Origin: Turneriella sp.
GTDB lineage: Bacteria > Spirochaetota > Leptospiria > Turneriellales > Turneriellaceae
NCBI GenBank assembly: GCA_019186965.1
Contig: JABARV010000003.1
Location: 1 to 64,000 of the forward strand
Direction: 5' to 3'
DNA length: 64,000 nt
This document shows positions 25,593 to 32,602 of this stretch, piece by piece. A model generated the notes under the pieces. It did no database searches, was not told the origin of the DNA, and worked only from the letters and a program-made list of their open reading frames with translations. Every line of letters begins with the position of its first letter. Position 1 is the first letter of the stretch. The position numbers and the translations under genes are program-made.

Positions 25593-26192
25593 TTATAATT
25601 TATCGTCGTAGTCTTCTTTTGAGAGCTTCTCCAGAAGTTCATTTTTACGCGCATCGTCTAAATGGGGCGGATGCACCTCGGCAGTCGCTTGTCTTTTTCT
25701 ACGGCTACGGATAAAAAGTGCGACAACACCTGCGCACAAAATACCGCCTAAAATAGAAAAAATTGCAAGGTAATTTGTTTCAGGAACAGTTAAAATTTGC
25801 GAACCAAAGCCATCGCGAAATTTTTCCAGCATATACGCATAGTCGTTTTGCCGCGCCATTCGAAAAGCTTCGTTCTTTTCTACAATGGGCCCAAAACCAT
25901 TACGAAACCCCGCTAAAATCTCTGCGTCGCTTTTCCCTTCAAGGAGTAGTTTATCCAGTGCATCGCGTGCAGGCCAAGCGTTGCAGTGCCCCGTATGGTT
26001 ACAATTGTGTAGTGGCATGTTGCATCCACAGGTGCACATAAGTTTGTGCGAGAGGCTATCAAACCTTTTAAGAAGCTCTGGATCGGTGAGGCGGCTGTGT
26101 ACGCTATGCGCCATAAGCGAAGAAACAAACAAAAAGGGAGCCAAAATAAAAGTAAAGTGTGCTACTTGCCAGAAACGAAAGAATAAGCGCAT
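25593..26192 (-). CDS. CcmH-like cytochrome c maturation protein
   Basis: After a signal segment (FTFILAPFLFVSSLMAHS), a short helical domain contains LMCTCGCNMPLHNCNHTGHCNAWPARDALDKLL...SDAEILAGFRNGFG. The second half is the known CcmH pattern, in which a Cys pair reduces apocytochrome c. This version has five cysteines rather than a lone CxxC. A membrane helix (LAIFSILGGILCAGVVALFI) and a charged tail follow. ATG 26192 (199 aa) is chosen because the longer frame to 26270 would overlap the upstream gene. No other ccm gene is nearby. The gene is convergent with the hydrolase gene, 2 bp apart. Confidence 0.75.
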   Translation of the reverse strand: MRLFFRFWQVAHFTFILAPFLFVSSLMAHSVHSRLTDPELLKRFDSLSHKLMCTCGCNMPLHNCNHTGHCNAWPARDALDKLLLEGKSDAEILAGFRNGFGPIVEKNEAFRMARQNDYAYMLEKFRDGFGSQILTVPETNYLAIFSILGGILCAGVVALFIRSRRKRQATAEVHPPHLDDARKNELLEKLSKEDYDDKL

Positions 26193-26242
26193 AGCATCTT
26201 CACTTAAAAAACAAGACAGGGGATAAACTGTTATTTGAAAGG

Positions 26243-26929
26243 CTATGGAGTATTTTTTTGGGCAAGCCACGCATCCACTTCCTGCTGTTTTTGCTTTAAA
26301 CGTAGAAGGTGGTTTGCTGTAAAAACAGTGTAATCAATATCACCCGCTAAAATATCCGAGCGAATTGTTTCAAGTCCGGGCATATCAATTTCAAAGTTAT
26401 ACGACGACGCTTCAAGCGCAAGGTCGCGCGATTTTTTCCAATACTGCATCGATTCACGGTAATAGCCTTCTGCAACCGCGAATGAATTTTTTAGCTCTGG
26501 AGCAAAATCAAGGTTATAAAAATAAAGGTGTCGTTTATCAAAGAGCGAACCTAAACGTAAATACGAACGCATAATCTGTAAATTGATATGCATGTGCATA
26601 AGCAACCGATACTTATGGTACTCTTGCGGATTATGGATAAGGCATAGCGCTTCACGTGGATGGCGAAATTTTTTTTCTAACGCAATTTTAAGAAAAAAAA
26701 TGTTGCGACGAATCTCTTCTTGTTGCGATAGCTGCTTTAAACTATACAAGAGAAAAAAATCTTCCACAAATTGCGGTTGCCATTGGTGCAACCTTTTGGG
26801 AATCCAATCGGAAAATTTTGTAAACATTCCCGATTGGTCGTAATAGTAATCTAAACGTAGGGTAGCCGAAACGGGTAATGAAAAGCTAAAAAAAGCAAAT
26901 ACAGCTACCGTTTTTAGACGCCATCCCAC
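26243..26929 (-). CDS. Exported protein of unknown function, Tyr/His-rich helical
   Basis: I do not recognise this 228-residue protein. It begins with a signal peptide (LKTVAVFAFFSFSLPVSA) with likely cleavage before TLRLDYYYDQSG. The mature part is rich in Tyr, Phe, His and Arg and is predicted to be helical, for example EIRRNIFFLKIALEKKFRHPREALCLI and SFAVAEGYYRESMQYWKKSRDLALEAS. The latter could be a TPR-like helix pair. It lies between the BrkB fusion gene (54 bp upstream) and the ccmH-like gene, all on the minus strand, so an operon is likely. Confidence 0.7.
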   Translation of the reverse strand: MGWRLKTVAVFAFFSFSLPVSATLRLDYYYDQSGMFTKFSDWIPKRLHQWQPQFVEDFFLLYSLKQLSQQEEIRRNIFFLKIALEKKFRHPREALCLIHNPQEYHKYRLLMHMHINLQIMRSYLRLGSLFDKRHLYFYNLDFAPELKNSFAVAEGYYRESMQYWKKSRDLALEASSYNFEIDMPGLETIRSDILAGDIDYTVFTANHLLRLKQKQQEVDAWLAQKNTP

Positions 26930-26983: not shown

Positions 26984-29362
26984 CTAATTTTTTACCTTAG
27001 AAGATGCCTGCATTAAATCAGACAGGGTAACTTTACGAAAAATTTTACTCCGGTTCTCTTCGAGCTTATCAAAATACGCTTTGACAGTGTTCATAAATGG
27101 ATTACGGTTACTGTAACTGGGTATTGAATAATCCGAAGGGTCGAGGTCTTCAACCAGCGCCCCAATTTCAATGCGGTCGGGATTCATCGCAAGGAGCCAA
27201 AATTGGCCATCGCCTTGCGTCACGTACCCGCGTTTTTTAAGTCGCTCCATAATAAAGGAAAACTCTTCTTGATCGCCAGCGCAATGTTCAATGAGCGACT
27301 TTGTCGAACAATCTACTTTACCCGTGTTAAAGCTTTGCGCTAAACGGTGGAGTAGACTAATACCATACCAAAGCTGCCTTTTTTGTTTTTCGTCATCCAG
27401 TTTTTTTTGGTTAAGCTTTAACAAAAAGGGATACTGTACAAAAAAAGCAAGTTCCGCGCCAAAAAGCATGATAAGGGACGAAATATAAAGCATAAGCAGC
27501 GTTAATGGAACAAGAGCAAGTGTTCCATAAAGCGCCGCTGTACCTTTAGAAAAATGCGTCACGTAATACTTATATACAACCAAGAAAATAACCCATGCTA
27601 TCGACGTTGTTGCCGCGCCTGCAGAAGCAGCTTTCGTCGACACCTTTGTATACGGAATTATTTTATAGATAAGGAAAAAAAGCAAAAAGATTACCGTAAA
27701 AGGAATAACGATATTTCCTAATGCTGAGATGAGTCTTCGCCAAAATGGCGATTTTTGTAGTATGCTAAACTCTCGTGAAGACAATTTATCGTTGGATATC
27801 TGCTGTGAAATCATATAATAATTATCGCCGACGATGATGAAGCGATTTTCTTTTGGAAAAAACCGTACTGCACGCAAAACTTCGGAGGTACTTATATTGG
27901 CAGCATGCCACTGTATCGTACCGTCGGGTAAAAACTGGGAATAGCGCACAAGCCCATCGTACCCCACAGCAACAGCTGTGCCATCGGTTGCAACTGCTAC
28001 GTCTTCAAAAAACATTGTTTGCACCATTTGTACACGTTCCCAAGAAATCCCGCTGTTGCGTGTAACAAACATCGCTCCTGCTTCGCCGACGATATACCCT
28101 GCTTTTGGGGTTACGGCAATTCCTGTAAAAGAAACATTTTGGTTTTGTACGGCGTTAAGAATTTGGGTATACGGCTTAAAGGTCGCTCCGTTATCTTCTG
28201 TTATTAAAGCGGTATTTCCATCCCCCACTAAAACCCATGCACCGCTTGGTAGTCTCGATATTTGCCTTAGAGCTCTTGTTACCCCTGGTTGGTAAGAGGG
28301 AACCCAAGTTTTTCCAGCGTCTTGCGAACGTAAAATTAAACCCTCTGCACCTATTATAATTACATCTCGGTTACTTAAAAAGTGGATGTGCCTAAAAGCA
28401 ACTTCGACCGCATGGTCGCGGCGTTGTCTATAAAATTTTTTAGCGTAAAATGTCTTTCCGTTATCGTTACTATACAAAAGAATTCCGTTTCCGGTAATAA
28501 TAAACTCGCGCATACCCTGCTGCGCGTAGTCGACAAATGTTGAATCTCTAAGTTCTTTTTTTTGCACTCGCGCTGCGTGTTCGTACACTTCCTTTCTATC
28601 TATTGGAATAACTTCGTTACGCATTGCGTTAAAAACAACTGGCTCGTTATTGACTTGTAAATCAATAGCGTTTAAAATATTTTTTTCACGAAAAGGTTTT
28701 CCTTTTTCATTTTCAACCAAAAGCAAATGCTGATCTCCTAAAATTTGTACCGAACCGCCCGTTACGCGCACTTGCACCAAATTGGGTGAGGCAAACTGTT
28801 TTACGAGCCACTGTGCAGAACTTATACCAACACCGAGAACCACAGGCCCAAAAATGACAACCATCATAAATCCGCCTATTTTTTGGACTATTGGACGCTT
28901 TCTATCCACGCGCCATATCCTGTTGATTGCATCTTCAATGTTTCTAAGTACGCTTGTCGCAGAGAACATAAGCACAAGCAAGCCAATGCCTCCTATCGCG
29001 CCTGCGTTTTTTAGTAGGTTGCGGATAACTCCAAAGTAAGGCTCTAAATCTACCTGCATTCCACTTAAACGCGCCATATCATTGAATTGCTCAAAATATT
29101 CTTCGATGTTGATAAAACGCGCTCCAACCATCATAATAACAACAAGCGTAGGCACAAAGCTTACAACAATTGCATAACTAATGGACGCGCTCCGTAGGAG
29201 TACTTCGTCATCAAGAAATTTTTTTGCCGAAGTTATGACAAATTGGATTGTCGATTGCAGCCTTTTCTGAAATTTTTTCGTTTCATCGAAATTACCGGAT
29301 AACGTATCGAACACAAAATTTTTTACCCGATTTATAAAAGTAGCAACGCCTATTTTCACCAT
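26984..29362 (-). CDS. BrkB/YihY membrane protein with inserted Asp-box beta-propeller
   Basis: The 792-residue protein has the six-helix YihY/BrkB core split in two. Helices 1-3 lie around residues 55-185 (SISYAIVVSFVPTL, GGIGLLVLMFSATSVLRNIEDAINRIW). Helices 4-6 come after about residue 540 (FTVIFLLFFLIYKIIPYTK, LYGTLALVPLTLLMLYISSL). Between them about 330 residues carry four Asp-box (BNR) repeats, SNDNGKTF, SQDAGKTW, TEDNGATF and TRNSGISW, like Ycf48 or sialidase propellers. With the N-terminus inside, the propeller would face the periplasm. A winged-helix-like cytoplasmic tail ends the protein. ATG 29362 is preceded by AGAGG. Function is unknown. Confidence 0.88.
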   Translation of the reverse strand: MVKIGVATFINRVKNFVFDTLSGNFDETKKFQKRLQSTIQFVITSAKKFLDDEVLLRSASISYAIVVSFVPTLVVIMMVGARFINIEEYFEQFNDMARLSGMQVDLEPYFGVIRNLLKNAGAIGGIGLLVLMFSATSVLRNIEDAINRIWRVDRKRPIVQKIGGFMMVVIFGPVVLGVGISSAQWLVKQFASPNLVQVRVTGGSVQILGDQHLLLVENEKGKPFREKNILNAIDLQVNNEPVVFNAMRNEVIPIDRKEVYEHAARVQKKELRDSTFVDYAQQGMREFIITGNGILLYSNDNGKTFYAKKFYRQRRDHAVEVAFRHIHFLSNRDVIIIGAEGLILRSQDAGKTWVPSYQPGVTRALRQISRLPSGAWVLVGDGNTALITEDNGATFKPYTQILNAVQNQNVSFTGIAVTPKAGYIVGEAGAMFVTRNSGISWERVQMVQTMFFEDVAVATDGTAVAVGYDGLVRYSQFLPDGTIQWHAANISTSEVLRAVRFFPKENRFIIVGDNYYMISQQISNDKLSSREFSILQKSPFWRRLISALGNIVIPFTVIFLLFFLIYKIIPYTKVSTKAASAGAATTSIAWVIFLVVYKYYVTHFSKGTAALYGTLALVPLTLLMLYISSLIMLFGAELAFFVQYPFLLKLNQKKLDDEKQKRQLWYGISLLHRLAQSFNTGKVDCSTKSLIEHCAGDQEEFSFIMERLKKRGYVTQGDGQFWLLAMNPDRIEIGALVEDLDPSDYSIPSYSNRNPFMNTVKAYFDKLEENRSKIFRKVTLSDLMQASSKVKN

Positions 29363-29435
29363 AAGTTTAACCTCTAAGCACAAAGCAGCGTGTCACTATT
29401 TATTTTGGTATTGCCCCTTAAGGCCAGGCCGGGAG

Positions 29436-29507: not shown

Positions 29508-30128
29508 ATGCATAATTTTAACTCGTACCTCGCGCAAGGAATTGGCGGCTTACCAAGCTCTCTCATTTCTATCATCCTTATTATTGTTTCGGTTTTGATG
29601 CTTACCATTGCATTAGAACGCGGTTACATCCTCTTTCGATTAAACGCCCCCCTAAACCACGAAGAAGCACGTGCGTTTTTAAAGTTAATCCGCGAAAAAA
29701 AATTCGATGATGCAAAAATATTTTGTGCAAACAAAACACACCCTGCTTTTCGAACCCTTGTTAGAATTTTAGAGAACCGTACGAACACCTCAGATATTTT
29801 GTCGCTTGCAAAAGAAGAAATCCTTATTGAACAAAATTCATTAGAACGCTTTACTTCTTTTCTAGGAACAACGACTACTTTAGCCCCCATGCTTGGGCTT
29901 TTGGGTACGGTCACAGGAATGATTAAAGCCTTTAGCGCTTTTGCGCAAGCAAGCAGCCATTCTGGCCAGCTTACCATTGGTATCCACGAAGCGCTCATCA
30001 CTACAACTTTAGGACTAATGATTGCGATTCCCGCTCTTGTTTTTTTTAACTTCTACGTAAGGCGCACGAATCTCCTTATGGATGAGTGCGAGCACCTGGT
30101 TGAGCAAACACTCAAAGAAATTCAATAA
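29508..30128 (+). CDS. MotA/TolQ/ExbB proton channel family protein
   Basis: The 206-residue protein has an N-terminal helix (LPSSLISIILIIVSVLMLTIALERGYIL), a cytoplasmic loop and then the conserved pair FLGTTTTLAPMLGLLGTVTGMIKAF and HEALITTTLGLMIAIPALVFFNFYVRR. These make the proton channel with an ExbD/TolR partner, encoded immediately after with a one-base overlap. The complex powers a TonB- or TolA-like protein across the periplasm. A TonB-like gene lies far away at 47 kb. The ribosome site is weak. Confidence 0.93.
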   Translation: MHNFNSYLAQGIGGLPSSLISIILIIVSVLMLTIALERGYILFRLNAPLNHEEARAFLKLIREKKFDDAKIFCANKTHPAFRTLVRILENRTNTSDILSLAKEEILIEQNSLERFTSFLGTTTTLAPMLGLLGTVTGMIKAFSAFAQASSHSGQLTIGIHEALITTTLGLMIAIPALVFFNFYVRRTNLLMDECEHLVEQTLKEIQ

Positions 30129-30526
30129 TGTTACGTACACGTAAACGGTTATCTCTGCGTACAGGGATTGAGCTTGCCCCTTTTGTAGATATCCTTTTTC
30201 TTTTGGTTACTTACTTTTTGATGAATGCAACCCTCGCTAATAATCCCGCGATAAAAATTGAACTCCCTAAATCGGATACTTCACAGGCTGCGGAGACACA
30301 ACCTCTGGTAGTTCTTATCAACCAAGACAACCAAATTTATGTCAACGAGCGCAACGTACCGCTTAAAGATTTAGGAAAAAGAGTCGTTGGGTTACTCAAA
30401 GATAAAGAAAAAGACCAAGTGATTATCCGTGGCGATAAACGTTCATCGTACCAAGTCGTTATTTCTGTAATGGACGAACTCAACAAGGCAGGGGTCACGC
30501 GTTTTAACCTTGCGACCGACAAGTAA
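30128..30526 (+). CDS. ExbD/TolR family protein
   Basis: A 132-residue protein with one helix, GIELAPFVDILFLLVTYFLM, carrying the essential proton-path aspartate (Asp21). A periplasmic domain with the ExbD/TolR fold follows, including VIIRGDKRSSYQVVISVMDELNKAGVTRFNLAT. It works with the ExbB-like protein encoded before it (ATG overlapping the stop codon). The next gene starts directly after its stop. Confidence 0.93.
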   Translation: MLRTRKRLSLRTGIELAPFVDILFLLVTYFLMNATLANNPAIKIELPKSDTSQAAETQPLVVLINQDNQIYVNERNVPLKDLGKRVVGLLKDKEKDQVIIRGDKRSSYQVVISVMDELNKAGVTRFNLATDK

Positions 30527-32602
30527 ATGGATTGGCGCTTCTCCATAGGCGCAAGAGATATACTTTTTCGCTCTGCCGCTTTTTTGTGGGGATTTACTTT
30601 TTTTCTTTTTTTTCGCTACCTTTTAGAAAAATTTTTCCCCTATTTTCGCGGCATATTTCCTCTTACGCTTTTTGCACTACTCCTTTTTGGAATTGCATTT
30701 CTCGCCGCTGCGCTCTATAAAGTCCAAGGGCGTATTCGCTGGAAGCTATTTATTTTGGGAACGTTAGTGTCTTTTGCCGTCGGCGCATGCATTATTACGC
30801 TTTTCACCTATTTCCATACAAAAACCGCATTACTCTACTTTCCCATTCCGCTTATTTTGCTTTCGTTGTATTTATGGTACGAGTTATCCCGATACGCATT
30901 TTCATTCCATACAGTTAAACCTTACCTCATTGTAGGGATTATTGTTTCTTTATTTGTCGGGCGTTACTTGGAAAATCCGCTTTGGGCAATTATACTTTCT
31001 CTTGCCGTTATCGCTTTTACGCGTACGCAACCGCAGCGCGAATTTACCATAGTACACGAGCGATTACTTACGTTACGCCAACTTATTGATTTTTTACGAT
31101 ACCTGTTCCTGGCGCAAGCATTCCATTCTATTTTAGAGCTTAACCGAGAACATTTACTTTACATACTTATCATCTGTGCAATTGGTTTTGTTTTGCCGCT
31201 ACTTATACAAAAATTTGGAACCCTGCGCCCACGTATCCAACAAGGGCTTACCACACTACCGATTATTTTTAGCGCAATCGCTTTTATTTTTAACCTTTTA
31301 CCTTACCCCTACGTCGGCGCAATAGCATATTTACTCCTTGCGCTATGGGAAGCGATTTATTTTGGAAAATCCCATGAAATTTATTTAAGGCGAGAAAAAA
31401 TTCTTGCAGGGCTTGCAATTTTTAGTGCAATTCTCGCTTACTACATTGCATCCGAATGGATGCAAATTCTTTTAGGTATACTAATACTAATCTTTTTAAG
31501 CGGGATTCTTTTTAATATCGCAAAAAAATGGCGCAGAACGATTACGGCTTTATTTAGTATCGCAGTACTCCTATGGGGGTATGCAGTACAAGAAAAATAT
31601 TCTAACTCGGTTACTCGCGTTTTTTTTCGCTCCCCCCCTTTACGCATACATAAGCCACAACTACCAGATGTTGGGCTTATAACGGCAATCCTAACAGAAA
31701 GGCAAAATTTATCGCAGCGCCTCTACACCAATATCCTACCACATGAATTGTACCTCGACAATGCATGGCAAAAGCAAAATATTGGAACGTTCGATGCAAA
31801 CCCGGCTTTTTTAACTTTGCGTTTCATTTACGAATGTTATGTCCTTAAAGAAGACCGTGTTTATATTTTAGACGAAAAAAGCTTAGAGCACTACGCAGAG
31901 CCTTTAGCGCTTGTTTCGCTGAGTAAATTATTCAATTTTTTTGGCCGCTGCAACTTATTTATTACAGATGGAAAAACCCTGCGGAGCATAAAAAATCTTG
32001 GACAAATTTTATCGACAACACCTGCACAAATCGCAAGCACCATTACTTTAGAAAACGCACCGCTTTTATTGAGCCTTGCCCGCGCCGAAAAAAGGTACGA
32101 TTTAACAAACGAGGCATATTTACTTTACGAACAGGTGTTTCCTTTTTATAAAAATGATACTGACTTTTTACGTGAGCTTTCGGCGCTTGCCGCTACTCGT
32201 GGGCTGCTCGACCGCCAAATCGAAATTTTAAATCTTGTAGTCCAGAACGCAAAAGACAACACCCTCTACGATAAAAAAATGCTAATGGAACTTTATGCGC
32301 TCAAAAACGATAAAAAGAAAAGTGCAGCCATGGCATACGAAATTCTCGCTGCCGACACAGGTGAATCCTCTCTTGCCATTTATGCTTTTCTCCAAAAATT
32401 GTTTTCTGAACCTTTCGACCGCTACGAGATGGAAGCGTTGTACCGTAAGATTTCGACTTACAAACCTAAAACAGACTTGGAAGAACTCAAACTTGACGGT
32501 TTAAAACGGTTGGTCGAAGAGCAAATGAAACAAAACCCTACTGGAGATTTAAAATTTAGGGACGAAAACCACCGCCAAGAATTTATTACGTTCCCTGAGT
32601 AA
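30527..32602 (+). CDS. Large polytopic membrane protein with C-terminal TPR-like region
   Basis: I do not recognise a named family. The 691-residue protein has about ten to twelve hydrophobic segments over residues 15-365. A soluble region then begins KYSNSVTRVFFRSPPLRIHK. From about residue 510 it has helical pairs with TPR character (LLLSLARAEKRYDLTNEAYLLYEQV and LLDRQIEILNLVVQNAKDN). It starts directly after the ExbD stop and is probably translated with it. A membrane protein attached to a proton-channel pair suggests an energised envelope process, which is inference. It ends 2 bp from the convergent rhomboid gene. Confidence 0.75.
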   Translation: MDWRFSIGARDILFRSAAFLWGFTFFLFFRYLLEKFFPYFRGIFPLTLFALLLFGIAFLAAALYKVQGRIRWKLFILGTLVSFAVGACIITLFTYFHTKTALLYFPIPLILLSLYLWYELSRYAFSFHTVKPYLIVGIIVSLFVGRYLENPLWAIILSLAVIAFTRTQPQREFTIVHERLLTLRQLIDFLRYLFLAQAFHSILELNREHLLYILIICAIGFVLPLLIQKFGTLRPRIQQGLTTLPIIFSAIAFIFNLLPYPYVGAIAYLLLALWEAIYFGKSHEIYLRREKILAGLAIFSAILAYYIASEWMQILLGILILIFLSGILFNIAKKWRRTITALFSIAVLLWGYAVQEKYSNSVTRVFFRSPPLRIHKPQLPDVGLITAILTERQNLSQRLYTNILPHELYLDNAWQKQNIGTFDANPAFLTLRFIYECYVLKEDRVYILDEKSLEHYAEPLALVSLSKLFNFFGRCNLFITDGKTLRSIKNLGQILSTTPAQIASTITLENAPLLLSLARAEKRYDLTNEAYLLYEQVFPFYKNDTDFLRELSALAATRGLLDRQIEILNLVVQNAKDNTLYDKKMLMELYALKNDKKKSAAMAYEILAADTGESSLAIYAFLQKLFSEPFDRYEMEALYRKISTYKPKTDLEELKLDGLKRLVEEQMKQNPTGDLKFRDENHRQEFITFPE

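Follow-up and report, generated by a model that had tools for sequence, protein, structure and literature searches.

A Ycf48-like beta-propeller inserted into a YihY/BrkB membrane protein is conserved in a large spirochaete clade

Main

Membrane proteins of the YihY/BrkB family are common in bacteria (present in 10 of the 14 control genomes that we searched), and we found no established biochemical function for YihY proteins in the literature searched. A 64,000-nucleotide stretch of a Turneriella sp. genome (contig JABARV010000003.1; hereafter the window) contains a member of this family in which the membrane core appears to be interrupted by a soluble beta-propeller. This raises the questions of whether such a composite protein is real, how widely it occurs and what a propeller could contribute to a YihY/BrkB protein. 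The original prediction, made from the sequence of the window, correctly recognized a BrkB core with a Ycf48-like propeller, but it overlooked a C-terminal Rrf2-fold domain. The search for the same architecture that it had proposed reveals a conserved trait of a large spirochaete clade, a spread that it had not foreseen. Here we describe this architecture and weigh what it might do. Our preferred reading is a tentative one, to which we assign a probability of about 0.42: an envelope YihY/BrkB protein with a built-in periplasmic docking propeller, in which the core would handle lipid and the C-terminal domain would provide dimerization or protein contact.

One reading frame encodes four domains

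The protein is ordered as a first BrkB half with three transmembrane (TM) helices, the propeller insert, a second BrkB half with three TM helices and the C-terminal Rrf2-fold domain. The frame stays open upstream of the ATG as far as a TTG at 29383, giving 799 aa, and residues are numbered here from that TTG (seven higher than a count from the ATG). The ribosome-binding site was read directly from the nucleotide sequence.

26984..29362, (-): whole gene, 792 aa, a single open frame with an ATG start
29371..29375, (-): Shine-Dalgarno sequence AGAGG, 8 nt upstream of the ATG
28790..29251, (-): BrkB/YihY half 1, residues 45-198, TM1-TM3 (PF03631 first half; hydropathy)
27749..28789, (-): inserted Ycf48-like seven-bladed beta-propeller, residues 199-545 (PF14870; AlphaFold; Foldseek)
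28448..28471, (-): Asp-box 1, SNDNGKTF (305-312)
28304..28327, (-): Asp-box 2, SQDAGKTW (353-360)
28178..28201, (-): Asp-box 3, TEDNGATF (395-402)
28040..28063, (-): Asp-box 4, TRNSGISW (441-448)
27419..27748, (-): BrkB/YihY half 2, residues 546-655, TM4-TM6 (PF03631 second half, E 1.6e-21; hydropathy)
26987..27418, (-): C-terminal Rrf2-fold winged-helix domain, residues 656-799, predicted to be cytoplasmic (TIGR00738, 4cic, Foldseek)

The PF03631 profile (Virul_fac_BrkB) matches in two pieces, profile positions 2-135 and 147-257, with an E value of 5e-39 for the whole protein. Its score of 134.8 bits against a curated cut-off of 33.7, with both halves covered, places the protein in the YihY/BrkB family, and a Pfam search found it to be the sole BrkB protein of its genome. 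Hydropathy analysis identified three hydrophobic segments on each side of the insert (TM1-TM3 at residues 68-86, 123-141 and 169-187; TM4-TM6 at 558-576, 585-603 and 622-640), in agreement with the predicted insertion between helices 3 and 4 of a six-helix core. This two-half core is the one found in Escherichia coli YihY and YhjD and in Bordetella BrkB (family PF03631, with the older name RNase BN); what differs here is the propeller of about 345 residues between TM3 and TM4. Family-wide conserved positions are kept in the core, which is also the slower-evolving part, with 77/76% identity to a genus mate versus 54% for the propeller. A Foldseek search with the model of a homologue (G143, see below) found no similar solved structure for the six-helix core.

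That the protein is an artefact of two genes fused during assembly or annotation, a possibility raised at the outset, is refuted: the architecture occupies one frame in about 70 Spirochaetota genomes, including a near-complete relative whose two-contig assembly (G005) carries the gene on a 4.38-Mb contig, GC content is uniform across all four domains (0.39-0.42), and we found nothing in favour of a join. Because the architecture is kept in many independent genomes, chance and assembly error are ruled out, and it is near-certain that the architecture is real and conserved.

The insert is a predicted periplasmic propeller

Between the BrkB halves, the protein matches the Ycf48 family profile PF14870 (E 7e-16; 58.7 bits against a cut-off of 27). 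The first AlphaFold model, built from a 22-sequence alignment, has a mean pLDDT of 80, dropping to about 65 at some places in the membrane region; it shows an all-beta domain at about residues 200-543 with a pLDDT of about 90 and, as read from secondary structure, seven blades. Structure prediction, which had been suggested as a check, thus does show a propeller. The best Foldseek matches are to Ycf48 (5ojr; E 3e-11, TM score 0.72 on the target), and sequence searches agree that Ycf48 is nearest, including its D1-peptide-bound structures. The count of four Asp-box repeats was exact (starting at residues 305, 353, 395 and 441), and the placement of the domain between the halves holds, but its length is about 345 rather than about 330 residues. 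The conserved propeller positions are the Asp-box and glycine turns, and no candidate catalytic set was seen among them. These conserved residues are structural, which makes catalysis there unlikely, and the propeller is therefore probably non-catalytic, as judged from sequence conservation.

Loops presumed to lie inside are richer in Lys and Arg (1.9, 2.9, 1.3 and 1.5 per 10 residues) than those outside (1.1, 1.2 and 0.7). By this measure, the propeller lies in the periplasm and the two protein ends in the cytoplasm. With the hydropathy profile, this charge bias predicts six TM helices with cytoplasmic termini, as expected of the family, and it supports the periplasmic side originally proposed; the propeller almost certainly faces that compartment.

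Similar to the photosystem II assembly factor Ycf48/HCF136 (PF14870), the insert is a seven-bladed Asp-box propeller. Ycf48/HCF136 is, however, a free-standing exported protein or lipoprotein of photosynthetic organisms, whereas here the domain is internal to a spirochaete membrane protein. To our knowledge, no photosystem is expected in such a host. The protein might nevertheless be an assembly factor, in line with the assembly platform suggested by the original prediction, in which the propeller would bind nascent or unassembled membrane-protein segments as Ycf48/HCF136 does and BrkB would be the anchor and platform. The nearest relative in both fold and sequence, D1-peptide-bound structures included, favours this reading, as does the fact that propellers commonly bind peptides. 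We nonetheless consider it doubtful: Ycf48 is a separate protein rather than one embedded in a conserved membrane core, the core here keeps strongly conserved residues that a mere anchor would not need, and there is no conserved client gene nearby.

The Rrf2-fold domain lacks DNA-contact residues

Residues 656-799 resemble the Rrf2 family (TIGR00738, E 4e-5; PDB 4cic, E 1e-4 by phmmer). In the model of G143, a homologue without the propeller (pLDDT 81), the C-terminal region matches CymR and IscR (Foldseek probability 1.00, TM score 0.6-0.7 on the target, E about 5e-3); this model and 4cic together indicate the winged-helix fold with a long C-terminal helix that typifies Rrf2 proteins. The best NCBIfam match of the whole protein is PRK04214/NF003256, a 412-position model of BrkB fused to a C-terminal domain (E 1.6e-43). 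It has the same layout of core plus C-terminal winged helix, which also occurs in propeller-less spirochaete homologues, but the score is 149 bits against a cut-off of 500, and our protein additionally contains the propeller.

A periplasmic propeller, a membrane core and a cytoplasmic Rrf2-fold domain in one chain could be read as a transmembrane sensor, in which ligand binding by the propeller in the periplasm would be relayed across the six helices to a winged-helix transcription output. Although the fold is shared with the Rrf2 regulators IscR and CymR, their functional residues are not. Across 59 BrkB C-terminal domains, the positions of IscR S40, Y41 and R59, which we take to be DNA contacts, are mostly acidic or otherwise altered, the Fe-S cysteines C92, C98 and C104 are absent, and the mean charge of the helix-turn-helix (HTH) and wing is -1.8 versus +3. 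The absence of DNA-contact residues and Fe-S cysteines makes a relay from sensor to transcription unlikely. Moreover, in the G143 protein the propeller is missing and the C-terminal domain is present, and several proteins of family f6 (about 640 aa) show the reverse, ending after the core with the propeller kept and the C-terminal domain lost. Such separate losses disfavour an obligatory sensor-to-output relay. The sensor role suggested by the original prediction therefore appears improbable: the one domain that could plausibly serve as its output has no DNA-contact residues, and its loss is independent of that of the propeller. By sequence, the C-terminal domain is probably a dimerization or docking fold and not a transcription factor; in our preferred docking reading, it would serve dimerization or protein contact in the cytoplasm rather than DNA binding.

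A single insertion fits the core phylogeny

A whole-protein profile search identified about 70 full-length propeller-BrkB proteins among 393 sampled Spirochaetota genomes, counting those in which a single frame runs through the insert and both core halves. Some match occurs in 45 of the 48 sampled genomes of the window's class; the full-length proteins occur in this class and in families f12, f23, f31, f35, f39, f41 and f46. Other Spirochaetota mostly have an ordinary BrkB, which often measures about 430 aa and carries the same C-terminal domain, and most of these members match PF03631 as one unbroken piece. A scan of genome contigs matched only close relatives, in most cases metagenome bins that carry the label Leptospiraceae, Spirochaetes or Turneriella parva, and tblastn against plasmids outside the phylum matched BrkB and YCF48 only separately, with no combined protein. 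In the open-access literature searched, we found no description of a propeller within BrkB, just as the original prediction knew of no example; the architecture is apparently undescribed so far and may be listed in domain-architecture databases, which, like subscription journals, lay outside that search.

In a tree of the core only, all propeller-bearing proteins fall in one clade (SH-aLRT/UFBoot 68.6/84), which is consistent with a single insertion event, at moderate support. Inside this clade, the 468-aa G143 protein passes directly from TM3 to TM4; the propeller is gone, and the core and C-terminal domain are kept. G143 is sister to G085 (99.9/100) and has the same gene order. This clean loss indicates that the core persists without the propeller, which is an add-on module.

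The same loss, together with the faster evolution of the propeller relative to the core, would fit a largely neutral decoration that was inserted once and kept by inertia. However, the propeller is retained across deeply diverged families, at identities down to 14-20%, with the Asp-box and glycine-turn positions conserved, and G143 is the one clean loss found among about 70 proteins. We therefore give neutral retention little weight compared with a docking function.

Other departures from the ordinary BrkB layout were also seen. A 587-aa open reading frame (ORF) in a family f14 genome (L142, G055) encodes a Brachyspira-like BrkB in which an extra segment of about 115 residues interrupts the second core half, an insertion site that differs from that of the window protein. 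Three homologues (L143, L144 and L133; families f34 and f16) have long N-terminal extensions in ORFs of about 600-750 aa.

Neighbouring genes are not conserved

Two genes lie downstream of the propeller-BrkB gene.

26243..26929, (-): exported protein of 228 aa, outside the system (335/393 spirochaete genomes have homologues)
25593..26270, (-): CcmH-domain protein, adjacency not conserved (Pfam; locus comparison)

Both had been put forward as genomic partners, and neither bears this out. The CcmH-like gene lies beside propeller-BrkB in no other locus examined. The exported protein adjoins brkB in several Turneriellaceae, yet its gene is spirochaete-wide, mostly unlinked and usually elsewhere in the genome. 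Comparison of 40 loci found no neighbour conserved clade-wide, so the gene neighbourhood points to no partner; ATP-grasp and methyltransferase genes recur only within a family, f5. A TonB-C-like gene is convergent to propeller-BrkB in f12, f23, f31, f35, f39 and f46 (for example, L101:5484-6368 and syntenic loci), and ExbB/ExbD genes are divergent to it in the window (29508-30526); the proximity is probably coincidental in each case. After ExbB/ExbD follows a 691-aa multi-span membrane protein (30527-32602, +) without a Pfam match.

The 228-aa protein is helical, gave no Pfam or PDB match and has homologues even in genomes of about 0.9 Mb, although the listed members of family f49 lack one. 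It looks like an uncharacterized spirochaete-wide gene; a tie to periplasmic flagella would be a guess.

Probable lipid handling without a requirement for LPS

The E. coli BrkB-family protein YhjD co-purifies with LptB and binds lipopolysaccharide (LPS) core-lipid A in vitro, and the envelope is perturbed when YhjD is lost (PMC3219608). This work makes a lipid-handling role plausible for the BrkB core, whose substrate would not be LPS, or not LPS alone. A narrower role, as an accessory dedicated to LPS transport and linked to the export of lipid A, would draw on the same YhjD study and on a gene directly upstream of propeller-BrkB, on the same strand, in two relatives; the genes belong to one family (c48), of which the scanned member matched LptA/LptD_N. 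This role is contradicted as a general explanation by the distribution of LpxC. At least 20 carriers of at least 90% completeness lack an LpxC match (among them G053, G065, G085, G092, G104, G139, G147 and G167), and f14 genomes, which are Brachyspira-like by inference, have LpxC and no such propeller. Propeller-BrkB is thus not restricted to LPS makers, LPS is not the general substrate, and we regard the narrower role as very improbable.

In our preferred docking reading, a Ycf48-type seven-bladed propeller would have been acquired at the periplasmic TM3-TM4 junction of a YihY/BrkB protein. The core would continue to do the family's envelope job, most likely lipid handling at the inner membrane by analogy with YhjD, and the propeller may recruit or position a partner for it. 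A possible parallel exists on plasmids of Pseudomonas, Paraburkholderia, Vibrio, Azoarcus and Aromatoleum, in which YCF48-related genes adjoin MMPL/RND transporters, with DUF1302/DUF1329. These Pseudomonadota likewise pair a Ycf48-type propeller with an inner-membrane transporter, but as separate genes and with an unrelated transporter family, and the analogy is one of adjacency on a handful of plasmids. Propeller-BrkB could be the in-cis counterpart of these stand-alone proteins. A sixth example, from a Rhizobium plasmid (L158:5659-9459), has no MMPL/RND neighbour in view; this 1266-aa protein matches PF14870 in seven stretches and so apparently strings together several Ycf48-type propellers.

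A more specific and unlikely extension is an all-in-one, LPS-independent envelope lipid exporter, in which the core would move lipid, the propeller would dock a trans-periplasmic carrier or hand the lipid over, and the Rrf2-fold domain would hold the dimer. If true, such a role would open the YihY/BrkB family as a whole to functional study. More generally, a large, soluble and probably partner-binding periplasmic domain, together with a relative that shares the gene order and has naturally lost this domain, provides bait in the search for partners of the family. A docking role would also support the view that propellers of the Ycf48 type partner membrane machines in general and are not a speciality of photosynthesis.
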